Below, piece by piece: positions 7,593 to 64,000 of a DNA stretch of 64,000 bases. Made by a program: the position numbers and the translations under genes. Position 1 is the stretch's first letter. Every line of letters begins with the position of its first letter. Source of the DNA: Halarcobacter sp. (GTDB lineage Bacteria > Campylobacterota > Campylobacteria > Campylobacterales > Arcobacteraceae). The notes under the pieces are model-generated. The model made no database searches. It was not told where the DNA came from and was given only the letters and a program-made list of their open reading frames with translations. Location: the NCBI GenBank assembly GCA_030145305.1, contig JAQYVX010000003.1, positions 248,001-312,000 of the forward strand. The letters are read 5' to 3'.

Positions 7593-8242
7593 AATATGCA
7601 ATGGCATTAGACTATCAAAATTGTATAAATTGTAAAGCATGTGAAACAGCATGTAAAGAAGAAAATGGTGTACAACTAGGTGCAAATAAACAAAGAATTT
7701 GGGTTGGAATGGTAGAGGGTACAATTTTTAGTAAACCTTTTATAAATTTATACCCATCTCAATGTAACCATTGTGAAGATGCTCCTTGTGTAAGTGTTTG
7801 TCCTACTCACGCGAGTCATATAGTTGCAGGTGGAATAGTAAAAGTAGATGCAGAGAAATGTATTTTATGTAAAGGTTGTATGGAAGCTTGTCCTTATGAT
7901 GCAAGATTTGTTGATGATACTAAACTCGCTGTTGATAAATGTACTTTTTGTGACCATAGAATTGAAGAATATGGAACAACAGCTTGTCAAGCAACTTGTC
8001 CAACAAATGTAAGAATGTTTGGGGATTTAGATGATGAAAATAGTGACTTAGTAAAACTTCTAAAAAAAGAGAGATTCTTTTTCTCAAAAGAGAAAGCCGG
8101 AACTTTACCAAAACTATTTTATATCGTTCCTAAAACAGAAAGTTATGCTAGACAAAGTATTTCTCATGATACTAGGATTTATACTTGGGATGAATATAAA
8201 GCTGAGTATTATCAAAATAGCTTAAAAAATAAAAGGAGCTAA
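7589..8242 (+). CDS. psrB: Four-cluster ferredoxin subunit of the Psr-type complex
   Basis: A 217-residue protein with four groups of cysteines for [4Fe-4S] clusters: CINCKACETAC near the N-terminus, CNHCEDAPCVSVC, CILCKGCMEAC, and CTFCDHR with the later CQATC. This is the usual electron-transfer subunit between a molybdoenzyme and an NrfD-type anchor. Its ATG overlaps the psrA stop (ATGA), indicating translational coupling. No signal peptide is visible, consistent with export bound to the Tat-dependent PsrA. Confidence 0.88.
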   Translation: MKYAMALDYQNCINCKACETACKEENGVQLGANKQRIWVGMVEGTIFSKPFINLYPSQCNHCEDAPCVSVCPTHASHIVAGGIVKVDAEKCILCKGCMEACPYDARFVDDTKLAVDKCTFCDHRIEEYGTTACQATCPTNVRMFGDLDDENSDLVKLLKKERFFFSKEKAGTLPKLFYIVPKTESYARQSISHDTRIYTWDEYKAEYYQNSLKNKRS

Positions 8243-48625: not shown

Positions 48626-48702
48626 GCGTCTGTGGCTCAACTGGATAGAGCACTGGGTTTCGGCCCCGGCGGTTGGGGGTTCGACTCCCTCCAGGCGTAC
48701 CA
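48626..48702 (+). tRNA. tRNA-Arg (TCG), probable integration site
   Basis: A 77-nt tRNA: acceptor GCGTCTG/CAGGCGT, anticodon stem CTGGG/CCCGG with loop TTTCGGC (TCG), T-arm GGGTTCGACTCCC and encoded CCA. All genes to its left are chromosomal and all to its right are accessory, as expected where an integrase uses the tRNA 3' end as attB. Confidence 0.95.
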
Positions 48703-56548: not shown

Positions 56549-57715
56549 ATGTATTTATCTGAACATGAAAAAATAGATTTAAATAATGATTGTCTACAAG
56601 AACTTGGAGAACATATACTTAACAATAAAATATTGCATAAATACTTTAAATATGAATGGGGAATATTAAAGACAAAGCAATACTGTGGAGTGCTTAACTT
56701 TAAAAGTACAGACTATTTTATCCTTCCCAAAATATCAAAAGATAAAGATGAGAACTTAGATATATTTATGTATATGTTAATTTATGCGTATGATATGAAG
56801 TTAGAAAATGAAGAGATAGCATCTTGTAAAAATCATAAATATAACCTAATGGAAGTATTTGTCCAAATATTTGCTAAAAATCTTTTAAAAGAATTAAAAA
56901 AAGGTATCTATAAAGAATATATAACAGAAGAAGATAATTTGAATGTTCTAAGAGGCAAATATTTAGTGAATGAAAATCTAAAATATAATTTTACTAAAAG
57001 TAAAATTTATTGCGAGTATGATGAATTTAGTATGAATAACTCTTTAAATCAATTTTTTTTATTTGCTATAAAATCTTTAATAATTGGAGTTAAGGATAAA
57101 AAACTATTAAAAAAATGTGAACTAATTTTTGATGAAGTTGAATATAAAACTTTTGATATTAAAAATATAACTATGAATATTAATAGATTAAATATAAGGT
57201 TCAAAGATAGTTTTGAACTTGCACTTTTACTATTGAATCAATTTATCCCTTTGTTTCAAAAAGACAAGAAATCTTTTGCTTTTTTATTTGACATGAATGT
57301 ATTATTTGAAAAATTTATAGGTAAAGTAGTAAAGAATACATATGAAAATATAAGTATCCCAAAAGAGAATGAAGATTTTGGAAAGTTGTCATTAAGGCCA
57401 GATATAATTCTTAATGATCAAAGATTAATTATCGATTGTAAATATAAGATTAAAAATAATAAAGATGGAATAAATAGAGAAGACAAGTATCAAATGTATG
57501 TTTATGGAAATAACTATTATAAAAAGATTGATAAAACAATACTTTTATATCCAAAGTATAATGATGAAATTAAAAATTCATTTGTGTTGGGAGATAATGA
57601 AAGAAAAGTTCCACTTGAGATAAGAACATTAGATTTAAAGATGGAGATAAACACATATTCCAACTATATAAAAAAAATTACGAAAGAAATAAAGGAAATA
57701 ATTGATGGAATATAA
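56549..57715 (+). CDS. mcrC: McrC-like nuclease subunit
   Basis: A 388-residue McrC-family protein. The PD-(D/E)xK-type site is Asp285 (LRPDIIL), Asp296 and Lys298 (IIDCKYK). The N-terminal two thirds fit the McrC domain that docks on the McrB ring. With the AAA+ partner downstream it should cleave DNA after nucleotide-driven translocation. The gene order McrC before McrB is the reverse of E. coli. ATG start; upstream ribosome-binding site weak. Confidence 0.82.
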   Translation: MYLSEHEKIDLNNDCLQELGEHILNNKILHKYFKYEWGILKTKQYCGVLNFKSTDYFILPKISKDKDENLDIFMYMLIYAYDMKLENEEIASCKNHKYNLMEVFVQIFAKNLLKELKKGIYKEYITEEDNLNVLRGKYLVNENLKYNFTKSKIYCEYDEFSMNNSLNQFFLFAIKSLIIGVKDKKLLKKCELIFDEVEYKTFDIKNITMNINRLNIRFKDSFELALLLLNQFIPLFQKDKKSFAFLFDMNVLFEKFIGKVVKNTYENISIPKENEDFGKLSLRPDIILNDQRLIIDCKYKIKNNKDGINREDKYQMYVYGNNYYKKIDKTILLYPKYNDEIKNSFVLGDNERKVPLEIRTLDLKMEINTYSNYIKKITKEIKEIIDGI

Positions 57716-57772
57716 TAAGTTTTTCACTAGATTATTAAAAAAATAAAAGAACATTAGAAAAAAGGAATATCT

Positions 57773-59203
57773 GTGAATAAAAATGATTTTATAGTTTGGT
57801 TAGACAAAAAAGGCCATTCTTCAAGTGTTAAGAGTAACTACCCACTATATTTAGAAAAATATATACCTAAAATTTTAAAAGAAGAGTTTACTGAAGAATC
57901 AAAAGATCTCTTTGGTATGCAGCAAGTAGATGAAGTTAAAAAGATTTTAAATTTGTTTATTAGAAATTCGGATTTAAAAAAATATAACAAAGAGAAGTCT
58001 AGTTTCCCTACTTCTTCAATGAGAAAGTACATTGATTTTCTTAATGATAAAAAAGATAGAAGAATAAAAGTTAAAAATTTGATGCTTTATGGAGCCCCAG
58101 GTGTTGGTAAGACATATAATTATAAAAACTTAATTACGATGATTGAGAGTGGTAATAAAGATATAAAAGAAATTCTTAAAACAATTGAGAGTGAAGAAGA
58201 TAGTCCTCTTGAAAATAAAGTCTTTGATTTAATAAAAGATGAAAGAAGAGTTGAGTTTGTTACTTTTCATCAGAGTTATTCATATGAAGATTTTATAGAG
58301 GGCTATAGACCAAATAAAGATAATGGTATTCAATTAGAAGATGGAATATTTAAAAATATATGTGAAAAAGCTATTAATAACTCGAATAAGTCAACTGCTA
58401 CTGAAAAGCTAGTGTTTAGCGATGCTTTAGATATTTTATTAAGTGCTTCAATTGAAAATGAGGAAATGGTTAAGATTAATTTAAAAAGAGATAATAGCTA
58501 TTTTGAAATATATGATTATGATGAAAAATCTATATTCTATACTAGGCAAGGAAGAGGTCCAAATGAGAAATATCATACATTATCAATTTCAACATTAAGT
58601 ACAATGTATAGTGATGAAAAAAATAACTTTGTAGTTGGTGGTTTGAAAACTTATTATAATCCGTTATTAGAAACGCTTTTAAAAATTGGAAAAGAAAATA
58701 AAGTTGAAAGTGTTGATAAGAAAAACTTTTATATTATAATTGATGAAATAAATAGAGGAAATATTTCTAAAATATTTGGAGAATTAATCACTTTAATAGA
58801 GGAAGATAAAAGAGATAATTATGAAGTGACACTCCCTTACTCTAAGAATCAGTTTAAAATACCATCTAATCTATATATTATAGCTACAATGAATAGTACA
58901 GATAAATCAATAGCGACTATTGATATAGCATTAAGAAGACGGTTTACTTTTATTAAAATGAAACCTAAAGAGACATTGGTGAAAAATATGGAAGCAAGAG
59001 AACTTATGCATAAACTTAATGAATTTATTGAGAAGTTTTTAGGGGAAGACAATAAGTTAGGACATAGCTATTTTATGGGAGATAATATTGATTTAGAATT
59101 TATTAAAGAATATAAAATAAAACCACTTTTAGAGGAGTATTTTTACGCAGATGATGATAGATTAGAAAAAGTACTTGATTTATTATATAAGAAGGAAAAA
59201 TAG
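57773..59203 (+). CDS. mcrB: McrB-like AAA+ GTPase
   Basis: A 476-residue protein with an N-terminal helical domain (about 1-95) in place of the E. coli cytosine-flipping domain, then the AAA+ motor: Walker A GAPGVGKT (107-114), Walker B with DEINRGNISKIFGEL (from 324) and the McrB sensor MNSTDKS (373-379) followed by LRRRF. It drives the McrC nuclease. The N-terminal domain should set what DNA is recognised and is not of a type I know. GTG start with AAAAAGGAAT upstream. It ends 10 bases before a convergent operon. Confidence 0.85.
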   Translation: MNKNDFIVWLDKKGHSSSVKSNYPLYLEKYIPKILKEEFTEESKDLFGMQQVDEVKKILNLFIRNSDLKKYNKEKSSFPTSSMRKYIDFLNDKKDRRIKVKNLMLYGAPGVGKTYNYKNLITMIESGNKDIKEILKTIESEEDSPLENKVFDLIKDERRVEFVTFHQSYSYEDFIEGYRPNKDNGIQLEDGIFKNICEKAINNSNKSTATEKLVFSDALDILLSASIENEEMVKINLKRDNSYFEIYDYDEKSIFYTRQGRGPNEKYHTLSISTLSTMYSDEKNNFVVGGLKTYYNPLLETLLKIGKENKVESVDKKNFYIIIDEINRGNISKIFGELITLIEEDKRDNYEVTLPYSKNQFKIPSNLYIIATMNSTDKSIATIDIALRRRFTFIKMKPKETLVKNMEARELMHKLNEFIEKFLGEDNKLGHSYFMGDNIDLEFIKEYKIKPLLEEYFYADDDRLEKVLDLLYKKEK

Positions 59204-59213
59204 ATACTTCTTT

Positions 59214-60503
59214 TTATATGACTTGAGTTATTCCTAATCTACTTGAATATGCACTATATTCAACTTGCATTTCAGAAAGCAGCTCTTTATTAAATACTTT
59301 TATTTTTTTAAACTTTTTACAAAATATATTCTCTGGAACAGAGAAAACATATCTAAAATCAAAGATTAACGCAACATCATCTTGGTCTGTTGAGAAGTAT
59401 AAATGATCGTACAATTTTATTGAATCAGGTTTTTGTGCTAATTTTATATCTTTTCTTAGATTTTCTTTTCTTTTTGGATTTTTAATAATTAGACCACTTA
59501 TTAGTTTTAAATTTTTGCCAAATTTTTCCTGTGCAATATCACAGGGTCTTGATATTAATAATGTAATGTCAATTAACTCTTTGCTTTCATCAATTTGAGT
59601 TTTTATATATTTTTTTACAACTTCATCATCTTGTAAACTATAAGTATTTTTTAGAAATTCATTTTCATATGTTGTAATTATCCCAATTTGAAGTTTATTA
59701 TCTAAAGGCTCTTTATGTAGTTTAAAATGAAACCAACTATTAAGTTTAGAGTCAATATCAGATTCAATATTTTCTCCAATTTTATATAAAGAGTCACTAT
59801 TGTGTGAAGAAATTATAGTATTTGGTAGAGTTCCTTTTGAGTTTGAAATAAGAATATTGTCTAGGGCATCGAATAGAACTTCTCTTTTTTCTAATTGTTT
59901 GTCTTCTGAAATAAAACTCTTACCACCATGTCCAATAATTATTTTTTGAAGTTTTTTTATTAACAATTCATTAGATTCTAAATCTTTTGTTAAGTGTCCA
60001 ATAATAGAATTAGAAGAACTTTTTACATTTTTCTTCCATAATCCTAATTCTTCTAATGGATGACACTCTTTTACTTTTGTATTTATATCATCATAAAGTT
60101 TTTCTATTTTCCAAGATCCATCTTCATTTTTATATTCCATCCCCTTTAGAAAAGGGAATATTACATATGGTTTTCTCTTAATTTTTATTAAGTCTTCTTC
60201 TATAGCTTCTGTATGATGGGTGTCTCTGGACCAAATTACTAGAACATAAAAGGAATCTTTTGGAATAATACTTTCTATCCAACCTGTACATAGTTCAACA
60301 TCAAAATTTGTTGAATCATAATAAAGATCTAAAAAAATCAAATTTACATCAGAGAAAGGTTTGTCTGGCTGAGTATTTCCATCTACTACATCAGCATTAT
60401 AGAACTTACAGCCTATTCCTTCTTTTCTGTACTTTTCAATGAGTTCAATTACTTCATCTTCTTTATCATCAATGAAAATTATGTTTGGTTCAAATGATAG
60501 CAT
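59214..60503 (-). CDS. Receiver-like protein of a GHKL-linked defence module
   Basis: A 429-residue protein. The N-terminal 120 residues look like a response-regulator receiver domain: acidic pair Asp12-Asp13 (IIFIDDKED), phospho-acceptor Asp59 (LIFLDLYYD) and a VIWSRDT strand in place of the usual (A)T/S strand. The C-terminal domain (about 150-429) holds LLISRPCDIAQEKFG and DDVALIFDFRYVFSVPE and is not a known DNA-binding output. The start codon overlaps the stop of the double-GHKL gene (TAATG), so the pair is coupled like a kinase and its regulator. Confidence 0.7.
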   Translation of the reverse strand: MLSFEPNIIFIDDKEDEVIELIEKYRKEGIGCKFYNADVVDGNTQPDKPFSDVNLIFLDLYYDSTNFDVELCTGWIESIIPKDSFYVLVIWSRDTHHTEAIEEDLIKIKRKPYVIFPFLKGMEYKNEDGSWKIEKLYDDINTKVKECHPLEELGLWKKNVKSSSNSIIGHLTKDLESNELLIKKLQKIIIGHGGKSFISEDKQLEKREVLFDALDNILISNSKGTLPNTIISSHNSDSLYKIGENIESDIDSKLNSWFHFKLHKEPLDNKLQIGIITTYENEFLKNTYSLQDDEVVKKYIKTQIDESKELIDITLLISRPCDIAQEKFGKNLKLISGLIIKNPKRKENLRKDIKLAQKPDSIKLYDHLYFSTDQDDVALIFDFRYVFSVPENIFCKKFKKIKVFNKELLSEMQVEYSAYSSRLGITQVI

Positions 60504-62869
60504 TATTGATTCCTTGTAAATGATAGTTTGAGAATTGCACCTGTATATTTTGAAGGAATTTCAATCTCTTTAATTTCATCTTCTGAATTTACAATTTCAA
60601 GTTTTCCATACTTCATCATAATTGTATCAACTAAATAAAGTCCAATTCCTATTCCATCATCTTTTCGTGTAAAGAAAGGTCGTACAATATCTGTTATTTC
60701 ATCCTTAAACCCTGGTCCATTGTCCGCAATAACTATAGATACATTTTTGTTTTCATCTAAGAATGTTTTTATGAATATACTCTTATCGTCTTTATAAATC
60801 GTATCCAGCCAGTAAATACTATTATCAATCATATTCATCATCATTGTAATAAAATATCTTTTATCACATTTGATAGTTTTAATACTTTCATTAAACTCTT
60901 CTGCAATTAATATATTTCGTCTTTTAAGTTTAGATCGGTAGTTTGATATGGCTTTTTTAAGGGACTCATTTAAGTCGATTGGTTTATTTCCACCTTTTCT
61001 TAATACAGAAAGTACTCCATCCAGATAATCTTTCAATTCATCGATTTTTTCAAGTGCTAAATCTTTTTTAAATGGATTATCTTTAATTACTTCTTCCATT
61101 AATGGAACAAGTTTATCCATTTCATGAAGAGCAACAGATGCGGTCATTCCTACTCCTGCAGGGATTAACATTGTTTCTTTCTTTTCTTCATAATCTTTTT
61201 GAAGTTTTTCAGCTTCTTTTTTTAGTTTTTCTTTTTGTTTTTCTTCTGAAAAATTGGTTGAGTCAATTAATTTGTTAAATAAAGAGAGTTTGTCTTCTTC
61301 TGTTGAAAATCCTTTTGCAGAATGAAGATAAGATAACCATTTATTTCTATCTTTTAATCTTTCAGCTTTAAAGTCTGTTAAAATTTCAATTATGCATTTA
61401 TAAAAGATTTTGAAGCTTTCATTATCTATAAAACCTTCTCTACTTGTTTTTTCAACAAGCGAAGTAGATTGTTCTGCATCTAGGTATATAAATCCAATAT
61501 TTTGATTATTAGAAAACCAATCTTTATTTTGAACCCTCCTGATGTCAAGTTCTAGCCAATCATTGCCTCTTTCTCCATAATCATAAACTCTCATTTGATC
61601 TTTAAAAACTTTTATCCCTGATTGGTATTTTAATATATCTTTTAATGTCTTTGCATCAAAAGTATAATTTCTTAATGTTTCTGGATCAAGATCAAATGAA
61701 TATATTTCTAATAGTATATCCCCAAAAGGATTTTCTTGAGATTCAAATAATTTTATTTTTTCTTTTATTTCTTCTTCTGTTAAATTTTCTTCTTCTAGTT
61801 CTTCTCTTATTGCTGGAATTAATCTTCCTTTAATATTATCTTTTGAGTTAATTATCTCTCTATACCCAAATTCATCATTTAAAGATAGTTTAAAATCATA
61901 GTTGATTGTAATATTGTAATTTTTATCGAGCCAAGCTTCATATTTATAGGGTGCTATATCAAGTATTTTTTTTGCATCAGGAAAGTCTTTAAGCCAGTCA
62001 TTTTCGAAATTTAAGTGAATATTGAATTTTTTTGAATTATTTTTTGGAGATAGCATAGCTAAGGTATTTCTTTTTAAATCTCTTCCCATCCTTTTCGTCC
62101 AAGGTTCTTTAAGATGTGATATTTCAATTTTTGTTCCTGAAGACTTTTTAAAATGGAATTTATCTTGATTTAATTCTTTTACCCAACTTACAGGTATTTC
62201 TTCTAGGTATTGTTTTTGAGAGAATACATTCCAGTCTATTTCTAATACAATTTCATAATCAAGAAGTGTTCTATTTTCAATTTCTCCGTCTTTATTAATT
62301 TCAATTTTTTCAGGCCTAGTAATTAATTTTATTCGATCTCCTAGTTTATGAACAGCAAATCTACCCACACCTTTCTCTCCCATAGGAACTCTTCCAAAAA
62401 TAGGACTTCTATTTATTATTCTATTTCCTCTTTTATCAATAGGCTTTCTATGATCTGTGCCAGGTTCTAACCAAACATTTTCTATTGTGTCTGAAGTTAA
62501 TCCTGTTCCATTATCTTCAATGGTTATAGTTGGTTCTTTAAGAGTTTTAATTGTATTGATAGCATTTTTAACTTCTTCTATGTTTTCAATAGTATTTTGT
62601 ATATTTTCAATAAGTTCTTCAATTTCATCAATATTTTCAGCATTTATAGTAGTTTGTTCTATAGCTTCAATATTTTTAATTGTATTTCTAGCGTTATTAA
62701 GTTCATCAATATTTTCAATATTTTTAAAATCAACATTAACCGATTTTGAGTCTGCATCATAACTATTTTTCACAAGCTCATAAATTGCCATTATGGGATT
62801 TTTAATTAGTTCGTTACCTAGCAGCCTTAGAATGTGTGCTTTAGGTTTAAAATATTTAGTATTCTTCAT
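60503..62869 (-). CDS. Protein with two GHKL ATPase domains (Hsp90/MutL-like plus histidine-kinase-like)
   Basis: A 788-residue protein. Domain 1 is an Hsp90/MutL-type GHKL: N-box YELVKNSYDAD (30-40), G1 EDNGTGL (118-124), G2 GEKGVGRFAV (164-173). Domain 2 is histidine-kinase-like: HEMDKL (from 582) at the dimerisation-helix position, N-box MNMIDNSIYWL (678-688), G1 ADNGPGF (715-721), G2 GIGIGLYLV (739-747). Residues about 50-112 are a repetitive Asn/Ile/Glu insertion between N-box and G1 of domain 1. It overlaps the methyltransferase gene by 14 bases. Probably a sensor or switch of the restriction module. Confidence 0.78.
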   Translation of the reverse strand: MKNTKYFKPKAHILRLLGNELIKNPIMAIYELVKNSYDADSKSVNVDFKNIENIDELNNARNTIKNIEAIEQTTINAENIDEIEELIENIQNTIENIEEVKNAINTIKTLKEPTITIEDNGTGLTSDTIENVWLEPGTDHRKPIDKRGNRIINRSPIFGRVPMGEKGVGRFAVHKLGDRIKLITRPEKIEINKDGEIENRTLLDYEIVLEIDWNVFSQKQYLEEIPVSWVKELNQDKFHFKKSSGTKIEISHLKEPWTKRMGRDLKRNTLAMLSPKNNSKKFNIHLNFENDWLKDFPDAKKILDIAPYKYEAWLDKNYNITINYDFKLSLNDEFGYREIINSKDNIKGRLIPAIREELEEENLTEEEIKEKIKLFESQENPFGDILLEIYSFDLDPETLRNYTFDAKTLKDILKYQSGIKVFKDQMRVYDYGERGNDWLELDIRRVQNKDWFSNNQNIGFIYLDAEQSTSLVEKTSREGFIDNESFKIFYKCIIEILTDFKAERLKDRNKWLSYLHSAKGFSTEEDKLSLFNKLIDSTNFSEEKQKEKLKKEAEKLQKDYEEKKETMLIPAGVGMTASVALHEMDKLVPLMEEVIKDNPFKKDLALEKIDELKDYLDGVLSVLRKGGNKPIDLNESLKKAISNYRSKLKRRNILIAEEFNESIKTIKCDKRYFITMMMNMIDNSIYWLDTIYKDDKSIFIKTFLDENKNVSIVIADNGPGFKDEITDIVRPFFTRKDDGIGIGLYLVDTIMMKYGKLEIVNSEDEIKEIEIPSKYTGAILKLSFTRNQ

Positions 62870-64000
62870 TTATAATTTGCCTTTTTATTTGTGATGCAAT
62901 TTCTTTTGCCATTAATGGTGGCACGGCATTTCCAATCTGTCTAAATGCTGCTGTTCTACCACCTTCAAAATAGTAACTATCTGGAAAAGATTGTATTCGT
63001 GCTGCTTCTCTTACCGAAATAGATCTAACTTGTTTTGCATCAGGATAAATGTAGTGATGTCCATCTTTTGAAATATGAGCTACCATAGTATGAGAAATAC
63101 CACTTGGATCAACTACTTTATATCTATCAGTAAATGATTTTTGGTTTTTATGTGTTTTAAGTTCTTCTGGAAGGTCTGGGTATTTTAATCTTTCTCTATT
63201 TTTTTGCCATTTGTTAATTGCAATTTTATAGATAGTAAGATCTCTTTCATTGTGTGGTCTTGCTATATGTTGTGTAACAAATGTTTCTTCTTTTCTAATC
63301 CCAGATTTTTTCAGATATTCATTAGCTTCGGAAGTATATTTAGCCATATGTACTTTATTCCCAGGTTTAATTTTTTTAAGATCAGATAGTATATCTTTTA
63401 TTGAAAAATTTTGTTCTTGTTTCGTAAACTTTGGATATTCAAAATTTAGACCTTTTTGCCATCCTATTAGAATGATTCTTTTTCTACTTTGTAATACCCC
63501 AAAGTCTACAGAGTTTTGAATGGTGTAATCTAAATTATAACCAACTCTTTTAAAATATGCTTTCATATTTTTAAAATATTTGCCTTCTTCTGCTGTAATT
63601 AATCCCATTACATTTTCAAATACAAAAACTTTTGGGGTATATCTTTTTAGAAATTTAGCATATTCTTTATATAAATGATTTCTGGGATCATTTTTCATTT
63701 TATTTTTATCTCTTGCCCTTCCTACTAAGGAATAGGCCTGACATGGTGGACCTCCAATAATTAGATCAACCTCATTTCCTTCTAATATATTATCAATTTT
63801 ATCAAATATGAATGAATTTTCTACGCCAATAGGTTTATTTATAATTGATCTTTCAATTTTAGAATCACTATATTTATTTAAAAATTCTTCTCTTTTTATT
63901 TTGTCAAGTAGATAGTCATTATAAACACTAAGATTGTTTTCTTTTTTTAATTTATGATAAATAAGTCTTGTTTCAAGCGTTTTACAAGCATTTTCATCTA
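62856..64000 (-). CDS. DNA C5-cytosine methyltransferase, N-terminus outside the window
   Basis: The frame is open from the window end to the stop at 62856, about 380 codons, with no frameshift. Motif IV is GGPPCQAYS near 63740 (catalytic Cys), motif VI is FENVMGL, motif VIII is QSRKRIILIGW and motif X is GNAVPPLMAKEIA. Motif I lies beyond the edge. An internal ATG at 63698 is not the start because the essential PCQ motif lies upstream. The enzyme makes 5-methylcytosine at an unknown site and opens an operon with the double-GHKL and receiver-like genes. Confidence 0.92.
   Translation of the reverse strand, partial: DENACKTLETRLIYHKLKKENNLSVYNDYLLDKIKREEFLNKYSDSKIERSIINKPIGVENSFIFDKIDNILEGNEVDLIIGGPPCQAYSLVGRARDKNKMKNDPRNHLYKEYAKFLKRYTPKVFVFENVMGLITAEEGKYFKNMKAYFKRVGYNLDYTIQNSVDFGVLQSRKRIILIGWQKGLNFEYPKFTKQEQNFSIKDILSDLKKIKPGNKVHMAKYTSEANEYLKKSGIRKEETFVTQHIARPHNERDLTIYKIAINKWQKNRERLKYPDLPEELKTHKNQKSFTDRYKVVDPSGISHTMVAHISKDGHHYIYPDAKQVRSISVREAARIQSFPDSYYFEGGRTAAFRQIGNAVPPLMAKEIASQIKRQIINEEY

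Follow-up and report, generated by a model that had tools for sequence, protein, structure and literature searches.

Gene organization at the locus

The 64,000-nucleotide stretch of the Halarcobacter sp. contig analyzed here (the window) ends in an operon on the minus strand. Its gene order is C5-cytosine DNA methyltransferase, 788-amino-acid protein, 429-amino-acid protein, and each gene overlaps the next. Two McrBC-like genes run toward it from the opposite strand. The features are as follows.

56549..57715, plus strand: McrC-like gene (PF10117, E 1.6e-55)
57773..59203, plus strand: McrB-like AAA+ gene, converging on the receiver gene at a distance of 10 bp; candidate restriction partner
59214..60503, minus strand: 429-aa protein, receiver plus putative output domain (ORF list, structure model)
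59217..59771, minus strand: its C-terminal putative output domain, residues ~245-429 (conserved in long receivers, absent from short ones)
60045..60494, minus strand: its receiver (REC) domain, residues 4-153, acceptor Asp59 (fold search, conserved Asp)
60503..62869, minus strand: 788-aa MORC/MutL-type ATPase fused to a histidine-kinase core (ORF, Pfam, structure; full-length homology to HEF_HK-type proteins)
60506..61159, minus strand: its DHp-CA histidine-kinase core, residues 571-788, candidate phospho-His582 (structural alignment, invariant residues)
61340..62863, minus strand: its GHKL + S5 (MORC/MutL/Hsp90-like) ATPase module, residues 3-510 (structural alignment, invariant residues)
62856..64000, minus strand: 3' part of the C5-cytosine DNA methyltransferase gene, which extends past the window to ~64133

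The three overlapping reading frames had been proposed in a preliminary description of this DNA and were confirmed from the ORFs and the DNA. The overlap is 14 bp between the methyltransferase and the 788-aa gene and 1 bp (TAATG) between the 788-aa and the 429-aa gene, both read from the DNA, which is consistent with translational coupling of all three genes. The complete methyltransferase, found in the assembly (contig C18), has 425 amino acids and an ATG start at ~64133 in window numbering, past the window's end, and at full length it matches PF00145 with E 1e-68. It is the only 5mC methyltransferase of the host genome, where two matches fall on one gene. Candidates for its restriction endonuclease are the convergent McrBC-like genes 10 bp away. 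In this pair (window 56549-59203, plus strand), which adjoins the 5mC methyltransferase operon, McrC comes first, followed by McrB with a GTG start.

The operon is part of a genomic island. An exact 46-bp repeat of the 3' end of tRNA-Arg(tcg) lies at window 48657-48702 and at L008:12702-12747 (~window 66701), and the match between the two copies continues past the 46 bp. The repeats bound a mobilizable island of ~18 kb that carries NikA-like, relaxase, and TrbL genes, McrBC, the methyltransferase-kinase-receiver operon, and two further genes:

L008:10222-11340: tyrosine integrase gene, adjoining the Shedu SduA-type gene
L008:11353-12525, just past the window, minus strand: Shedu SduA-type gene (PF14082, E 1.1e-33)

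This context supports a defense role of the operon, by company only.

The 788-residue protein joins a MORC-type ATPase to a histidine-kinase core

Pfam finds two ATPase domains in the 788-aa protein, HATPase_c_3 (PF13589, E 8e-12) and HATPase_c (PF02518, E 1e-11). In the AlphaFold model (pLDDT 84.9, with segments 520-525 and 567-575 below 50), structural alignment separates the protein into two known modules. Residues 3-510 of the predicted structure align with MORC3 (Z 19.7, 307 residues, 3.4 A), MutL (Z 18.1), and Hsp90 (Z 17.8), while residues 571-788 align with HK853 and similar DHp-CA kinases (Z ~19.9, ~198 residues). The initial suggestion that one protein holds both an Hsp90/MutL-type and a histidine-kinase-type GHKL domain was therefore borne out by Pfam and by structure. 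Judged from the ends of the aligned ranges in the model, His582 would lie at about the position of His260 of HK853.

Both modules are predicted to be complete. Across 62 of 62 kinases, E31, N35, D38, D119, G121, G123, K166, and K474 are invariant in the ATPase module, as are H582, N679, D682, N683, D716, G718, G720, G741, and G743 in the kinase core. The protein contains the DHp-CA core with N and G boxes and the phospho-His position by which two-component kinases are recognized, together with the GHKL + S5 ATPase module characteristic of MORC and paraMORC proteins.

A different role is suggested by two matches of the N-terminal half, one to the PADLOC REase_II model and a weak one to the BbrUII/HgiDII model NF050001 (54 bits, relative to a cut-off of 550). 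The 788-aa protein could accordingly be a restriction subunit in the manner of the BbrUII/HgiDII-type GHKL proteins, with its partner as a structural cofactor and phosphorelay as a secondary matter. But no nuclease domain was recognized in the protein, and its C-terminal half is a histidine-kinase core with an invariant His582 and nucleotide-binding motifs, so we consider this explanation improbable.

The 429-residue partner carries a receiver domain and a conserved C-terminal domain

The structure model of the 429-aa protein has a pLDDT of 92.5. All 50 structural neighbors listed for its N-terminal domain are response regulators or receiver domains (best Z 10.1, 122 residues aligned), and the landmark residues D12/D13, D59, S92, and K120 are at the expected places. 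The acidic pair, acceptor Asp, Ser/Thr, and Lys of two-component receivers are all present, and the N-terminus is receiver-like, as previously assumed. All 58 long receivers keep D12 and D59, and all 18 short ones keep Asp58, the counterpart of D59.

The long receivers share a C-terminal domain of ~180 residues, with invariant N255, G274, C321, D322, R422, and G424 (N, G, CD, and RxG motifs). No convincing Pfam match to this domain was obtained in the 58 members, nor any PDB sequence match up to E 10. The preliminary description had the partner lacking a known output domain; this holds for named Pfam output domains, but a conserved C-terminal domain (residues ~245-429) is present. Weak matches to BRCT_2 (2 of the 58 receivers) and DUF4898 (the window protein alone) were taken as chance. 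A MazF identity, suggested by one chain at Foldseek rank 14 with the whole model, was dropped, since the comparison with the PemK/MazF profile gave P 0.3%. A plasmid search yielded no close relative of the receiver.

Gene neighborhood and origin

With a kinase profile we searched genomes at one per species and surveyed the best 80 of 368 matches, picked by kinase similarity. The counts of methyltransferases and Vsr depend on the seeds of their profiles, two sequences for the former and one for the latter. The homologues in these best 80 span Bacteroidota to Pseudomonadota, Chloroflexota, Actinomycetota, and one archaeal assembly. Immediately downstream of the kinase gene, 78 of the best 80 carry the receiver gene; at the other two loci, L041 and L046, the contig stops before the receiver gene. 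At 64 of these best 80 matches a 5mC methyltransferase is encoded no more than 3 kb away, and at 71 no more than 10 kb away; as a background, the host and 20 relatives (21 genomes) average fewer than one such gene per genome. Vsr is found within 10 kb at 45 of the best 80 loci and was not found at the remaining 35 or at the window locus. Nearby genes in the homologue operons include EcoRII-C, HaeII, MvaI/BcnI, Z1/DUF4420, and AIPR.

The expectation that homologues usually sit beside methyltransferases is upheld by these counts, and linkage to DNA methyltransferases and nucleases is constant; a like co-occurrence with McrBC, also put up for survey earlier, is not. A profile of the window's own McrC type placed such a gene next to the kinase-receiver pair at the window locus alone among the best 80 matches. 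McrBC was therefore left out of the core system and may be an unrelated passenger of the island.

One locus from a genome of the same order (L014:5670-10585) carries methyltransferase, kinase, receiver, and Vsr. A frame break near 7680 divides its kinase gene into two ORFs (324 and 348 aa); phase variation, decay, or an assembly error may be the cause.

In the kinase tree the window protein falls inside a Bacteroidota clade, nearest to Wenyingzhuangia, Marivirga, and Marinilabilia, with up to 65% identity. In the host phylum a relative of the receiver occurs in 2 of 397 genomes, the host itself counted. Because of this placement and this rarity, the operon was likely acquired by horizontal gain.

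The output module is swapped among relatives

Short receivers are devoid of the C-terminal domain, and a separate nuclease or toxin gene is present instead; on the kinase tree the output changes at least three times. The output module of the receiver is thereby swapped among relatives. In Bacteroidota, short receivers of 239-265 aa (16 aligned) are followed by a ComEC-like metallo-beta-lactamase (MBL) gene. The encoded protein of 318-361 aa is related to the ComEC nuclease domain, retains intact DVGQGDS/HPHxDH motifs, and matches PDB 9ic4 with E 1.7e-15.

At two further loci, L063:12183-13609 and L082:12103-13652, receiver and toxin-binding domain of Xre/MbcA/ParS antitoxins (ParS_C) form a single protein, and a RES toxin gene follows. 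The antitoxin domain matches with E 4.5e-7 in L063 and weakly (0.0034) in L082, the RES gene with E 1.8e-12 and 4.2e-16, respectively; in L063 the first receiver strand is absent from the called ORF, owing to an assembly or start-site issue. A RES toxin has been described to deplete NAD in Pseudomonas (PMC11535050). Given that a receiver comes with one or the other, a C-terminal domain of its own or a nuclease or toxin encoded separately, we infer an output role for this domain in the window protein.

The swapped genes also bear on whether the pair could instead regulate expression of the restriction-modification (R-M) genes, in the role of a C-protein, with the kinase sensing the state of the cell and the receiver adjusting synthesis of methyltransferase and nuclease. 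Transcription is the usual target of two-component systems, and signaling control of R-M systems was suggested by the authors of a 2021 study (PMC8011034). However, no DNA-binding domain was recognized in the 58 long receivers, the short receivers precede nuclease-type genes and not regulators, and the receiver-antitoxin fusion adjoining RES points to direct protein control. We regard such a regulatory role as unlikely, and direct control of an effector remains the preferred reading.

A divergent set on viral contigs

A second, far more divergent set comprises 67 loci on viral contigs. Among 54 prophage-borne receiver-like partners with a mean identity of 10%, the acceptor Asp is the sole invariant column (54/54); the start Met is shared by 53, and the two acidic positions of the first strand are kept in 54 and 51 of the 54. 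His582 is conserved in 65 of the 67 kinases. Asp59, already named as the acceptor in the preliminary description, is in this way matched by equivalents in the short and the prophage-borne receivers. Such conservation of Asp and His would be expected of a working relay but not of a dead scaffold.

Behind each of the 12 viral receivers shorter than 240 aa lies either an MBL gene (3) or a gene with an HNH-type CxYC motif (9). Among the latter nine, Pfam confirmed two as HNH, and one is PtuB-like in PADLOC. The order kinase, short receiver, HNH-type gene is seen in L136, L144-L147, L149, L153, L155, and L158, several of which have a gene with an N6/N4-methylase motif in front. Of 61 prophage loci, 24 have such a motif gene ahead of the kinase; the three tested by Pfam are N6 methylases, one of them below the cut-off. 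At some prophage loci no methyltransferase was detected, which weighs against the mechanism proposed below. A PADLOC scan of one set, L146, returned no receiver model and only partial models for the kinase and the HNH protein.

The frequency of Vsr among the best 80 genomic loci and the MutL-like fold would also fit an adjunct of repair or genome maintenance that acts with Vsr on 5mC deamination through the MutL-like ATPase. Yet Vsr was not found at the window locus nor at 35 of the 80, some prophage loci pair the kinase with N6/N4-methylase-motif genes, and RES toxin and HNH outputs are unsuited to repair. A repair function is very unlikely in our judgment.

Relation to known systems

Bellieny-Rabelo et al. 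(2021) linked the HEF_HK kinase (PF19191) and the Response_reg_2 receiver (PF19192) with C5 methylases and Vsr and proposed a signaling role in R-M (PMC8011034). As described there, these pairs resemble the window operon in the order methyltransferase, double-GHKL kinase, receiver, often with Vsr. Three true PF19192 loci have the same gene order as the window. HEF_HK also shares with the window kinase the architecture of HATPase_c_3, an H-box (His-bearing DHp), and HATPase_c, and the two are homologous over the full length (hhalign P 100, E 8.8e-48). The window branch nevertheless falls outside both Pfam models. At the curated cut-off PF19191 has no match in the window kinase (hmmscan) or the host genome, and none in 14 of 14 control genomes either; PF19192 at its cut-off misses the window partner and all 58 long receivers, and the same model did match other genomes. 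The window receiver has 429 aa compared to 555-617 aa for the Response_reg_2 type, and profile comparison with the latter is marginal (P 12.9 for the receiver, 16.7 for the C-terminal part).

The signaling relay put forward earlier for this locus therefore stands with respect to architecture, Asp59, and linkage to DNA methyltransferases and nucleases, but not as a new idea: a system of two-component type connected with R-M and C5 methylases was already proposed in 2021 (PMC8011034). Output swapping is not mentioned in the Results and Discussion of that paper (PMC8011034). Within the literature searched, our additions are the exchange of outputs, a prophage-borne set that includes N6-methylase genes, and the division of the kinase protein, by structure, into MORC ATPase and kinase core. 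No experimental study of such kinase-receiver pairs was found in open-licence papers.

The paraMORC/MutL-like ATPases of R-M systems (Iyer et al. 2008, PMC2292703) likewise have a MORC/MutL-type GHKL + S5 ATPase in an R-M neighborhood, to which the window system adds a complete histidine-kinase core and a receiver partner; some window-type homologues adjoin MutL-like/Z1/DUF4420 clusters. The defensive two-component system Detocs is similar in outline (kinase, receiver, effector), whereas the window kinase also contains a MORC-type ATPase and has a coupled methyltransferase. Among Detocs effectors the one described best is an ATP-cleaving PNP (PMC11249213), which was not seen here. PADLOC 2.0.0, which may or may not include Detocs models, gave no match named Detocs. 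The swapped outputs resemble LmuA/RTasMBL of Lamassu (MBL), PtuB of Septu (HNH), and the Xre-RES toxin-antitoxin (RES), but here these effectors are attached to the receiver instead of their usual partners.

Proposed mechanism and significance

We propose, with a probability of roughly 0.6, that the 788-aa and the 429-aa protein work together as a cytosolic phosphorelay within an R-M-type defense operon, and the best reading is that this relay gates a restriction or toxin effector. By its family, the methyltransferase would mark self DNA. The MORC/MutL-type ATPase, of predicted fold, could clamp or bind DNA or sense a DNA state produced by invasion, and would close upon ATP binding. Closure might yield a kinase-competent DHp-CA dimer in which His582, surrounded by invariant catalytic residues, becomes phosphorylated. 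The phosphate would then pass from His582 to Asp59 of the partner, whose receiver fold and residues are in place. The phosphorylated receiver would switch the output, in the window presumably its own C-terminal domain; in relatives, where the swap itself is observed, it may switch a separate nuclease of MBL or HNH type, or a RES toxin that the receiver-antitoxin fusion keeps in check. As a result, the invader would be restricted or the infected cell shut down.

More tentatively, and at slightly less than even odds, these operons may represent a broad class of phosphorelay-gated defense systems. In such a class a MORC-type DNA clamp would act as the sensor and a kinase core as the switch. The receiver would be a socket into which different effectors fit: its own C-terminal domain, an MBL or an HNH nuclease, or a RES toxin restrained through fusion of receiver and antitoxin. 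Self DNA would be marked by 5mC or N6/N4 methylation.

The common view of R-M systems is that of simple mark-and-cut machines. If a conserved His-Asp relay does operate within them, many would be gated by a signal. The swapped outputs offer a direct route to testing the effect of this signal, for which NAD loss in the receiver-antitoxin/RES variant would be a clean readout, and study of the MORC part could reveal what bacterial MORC-type ATPases sense.
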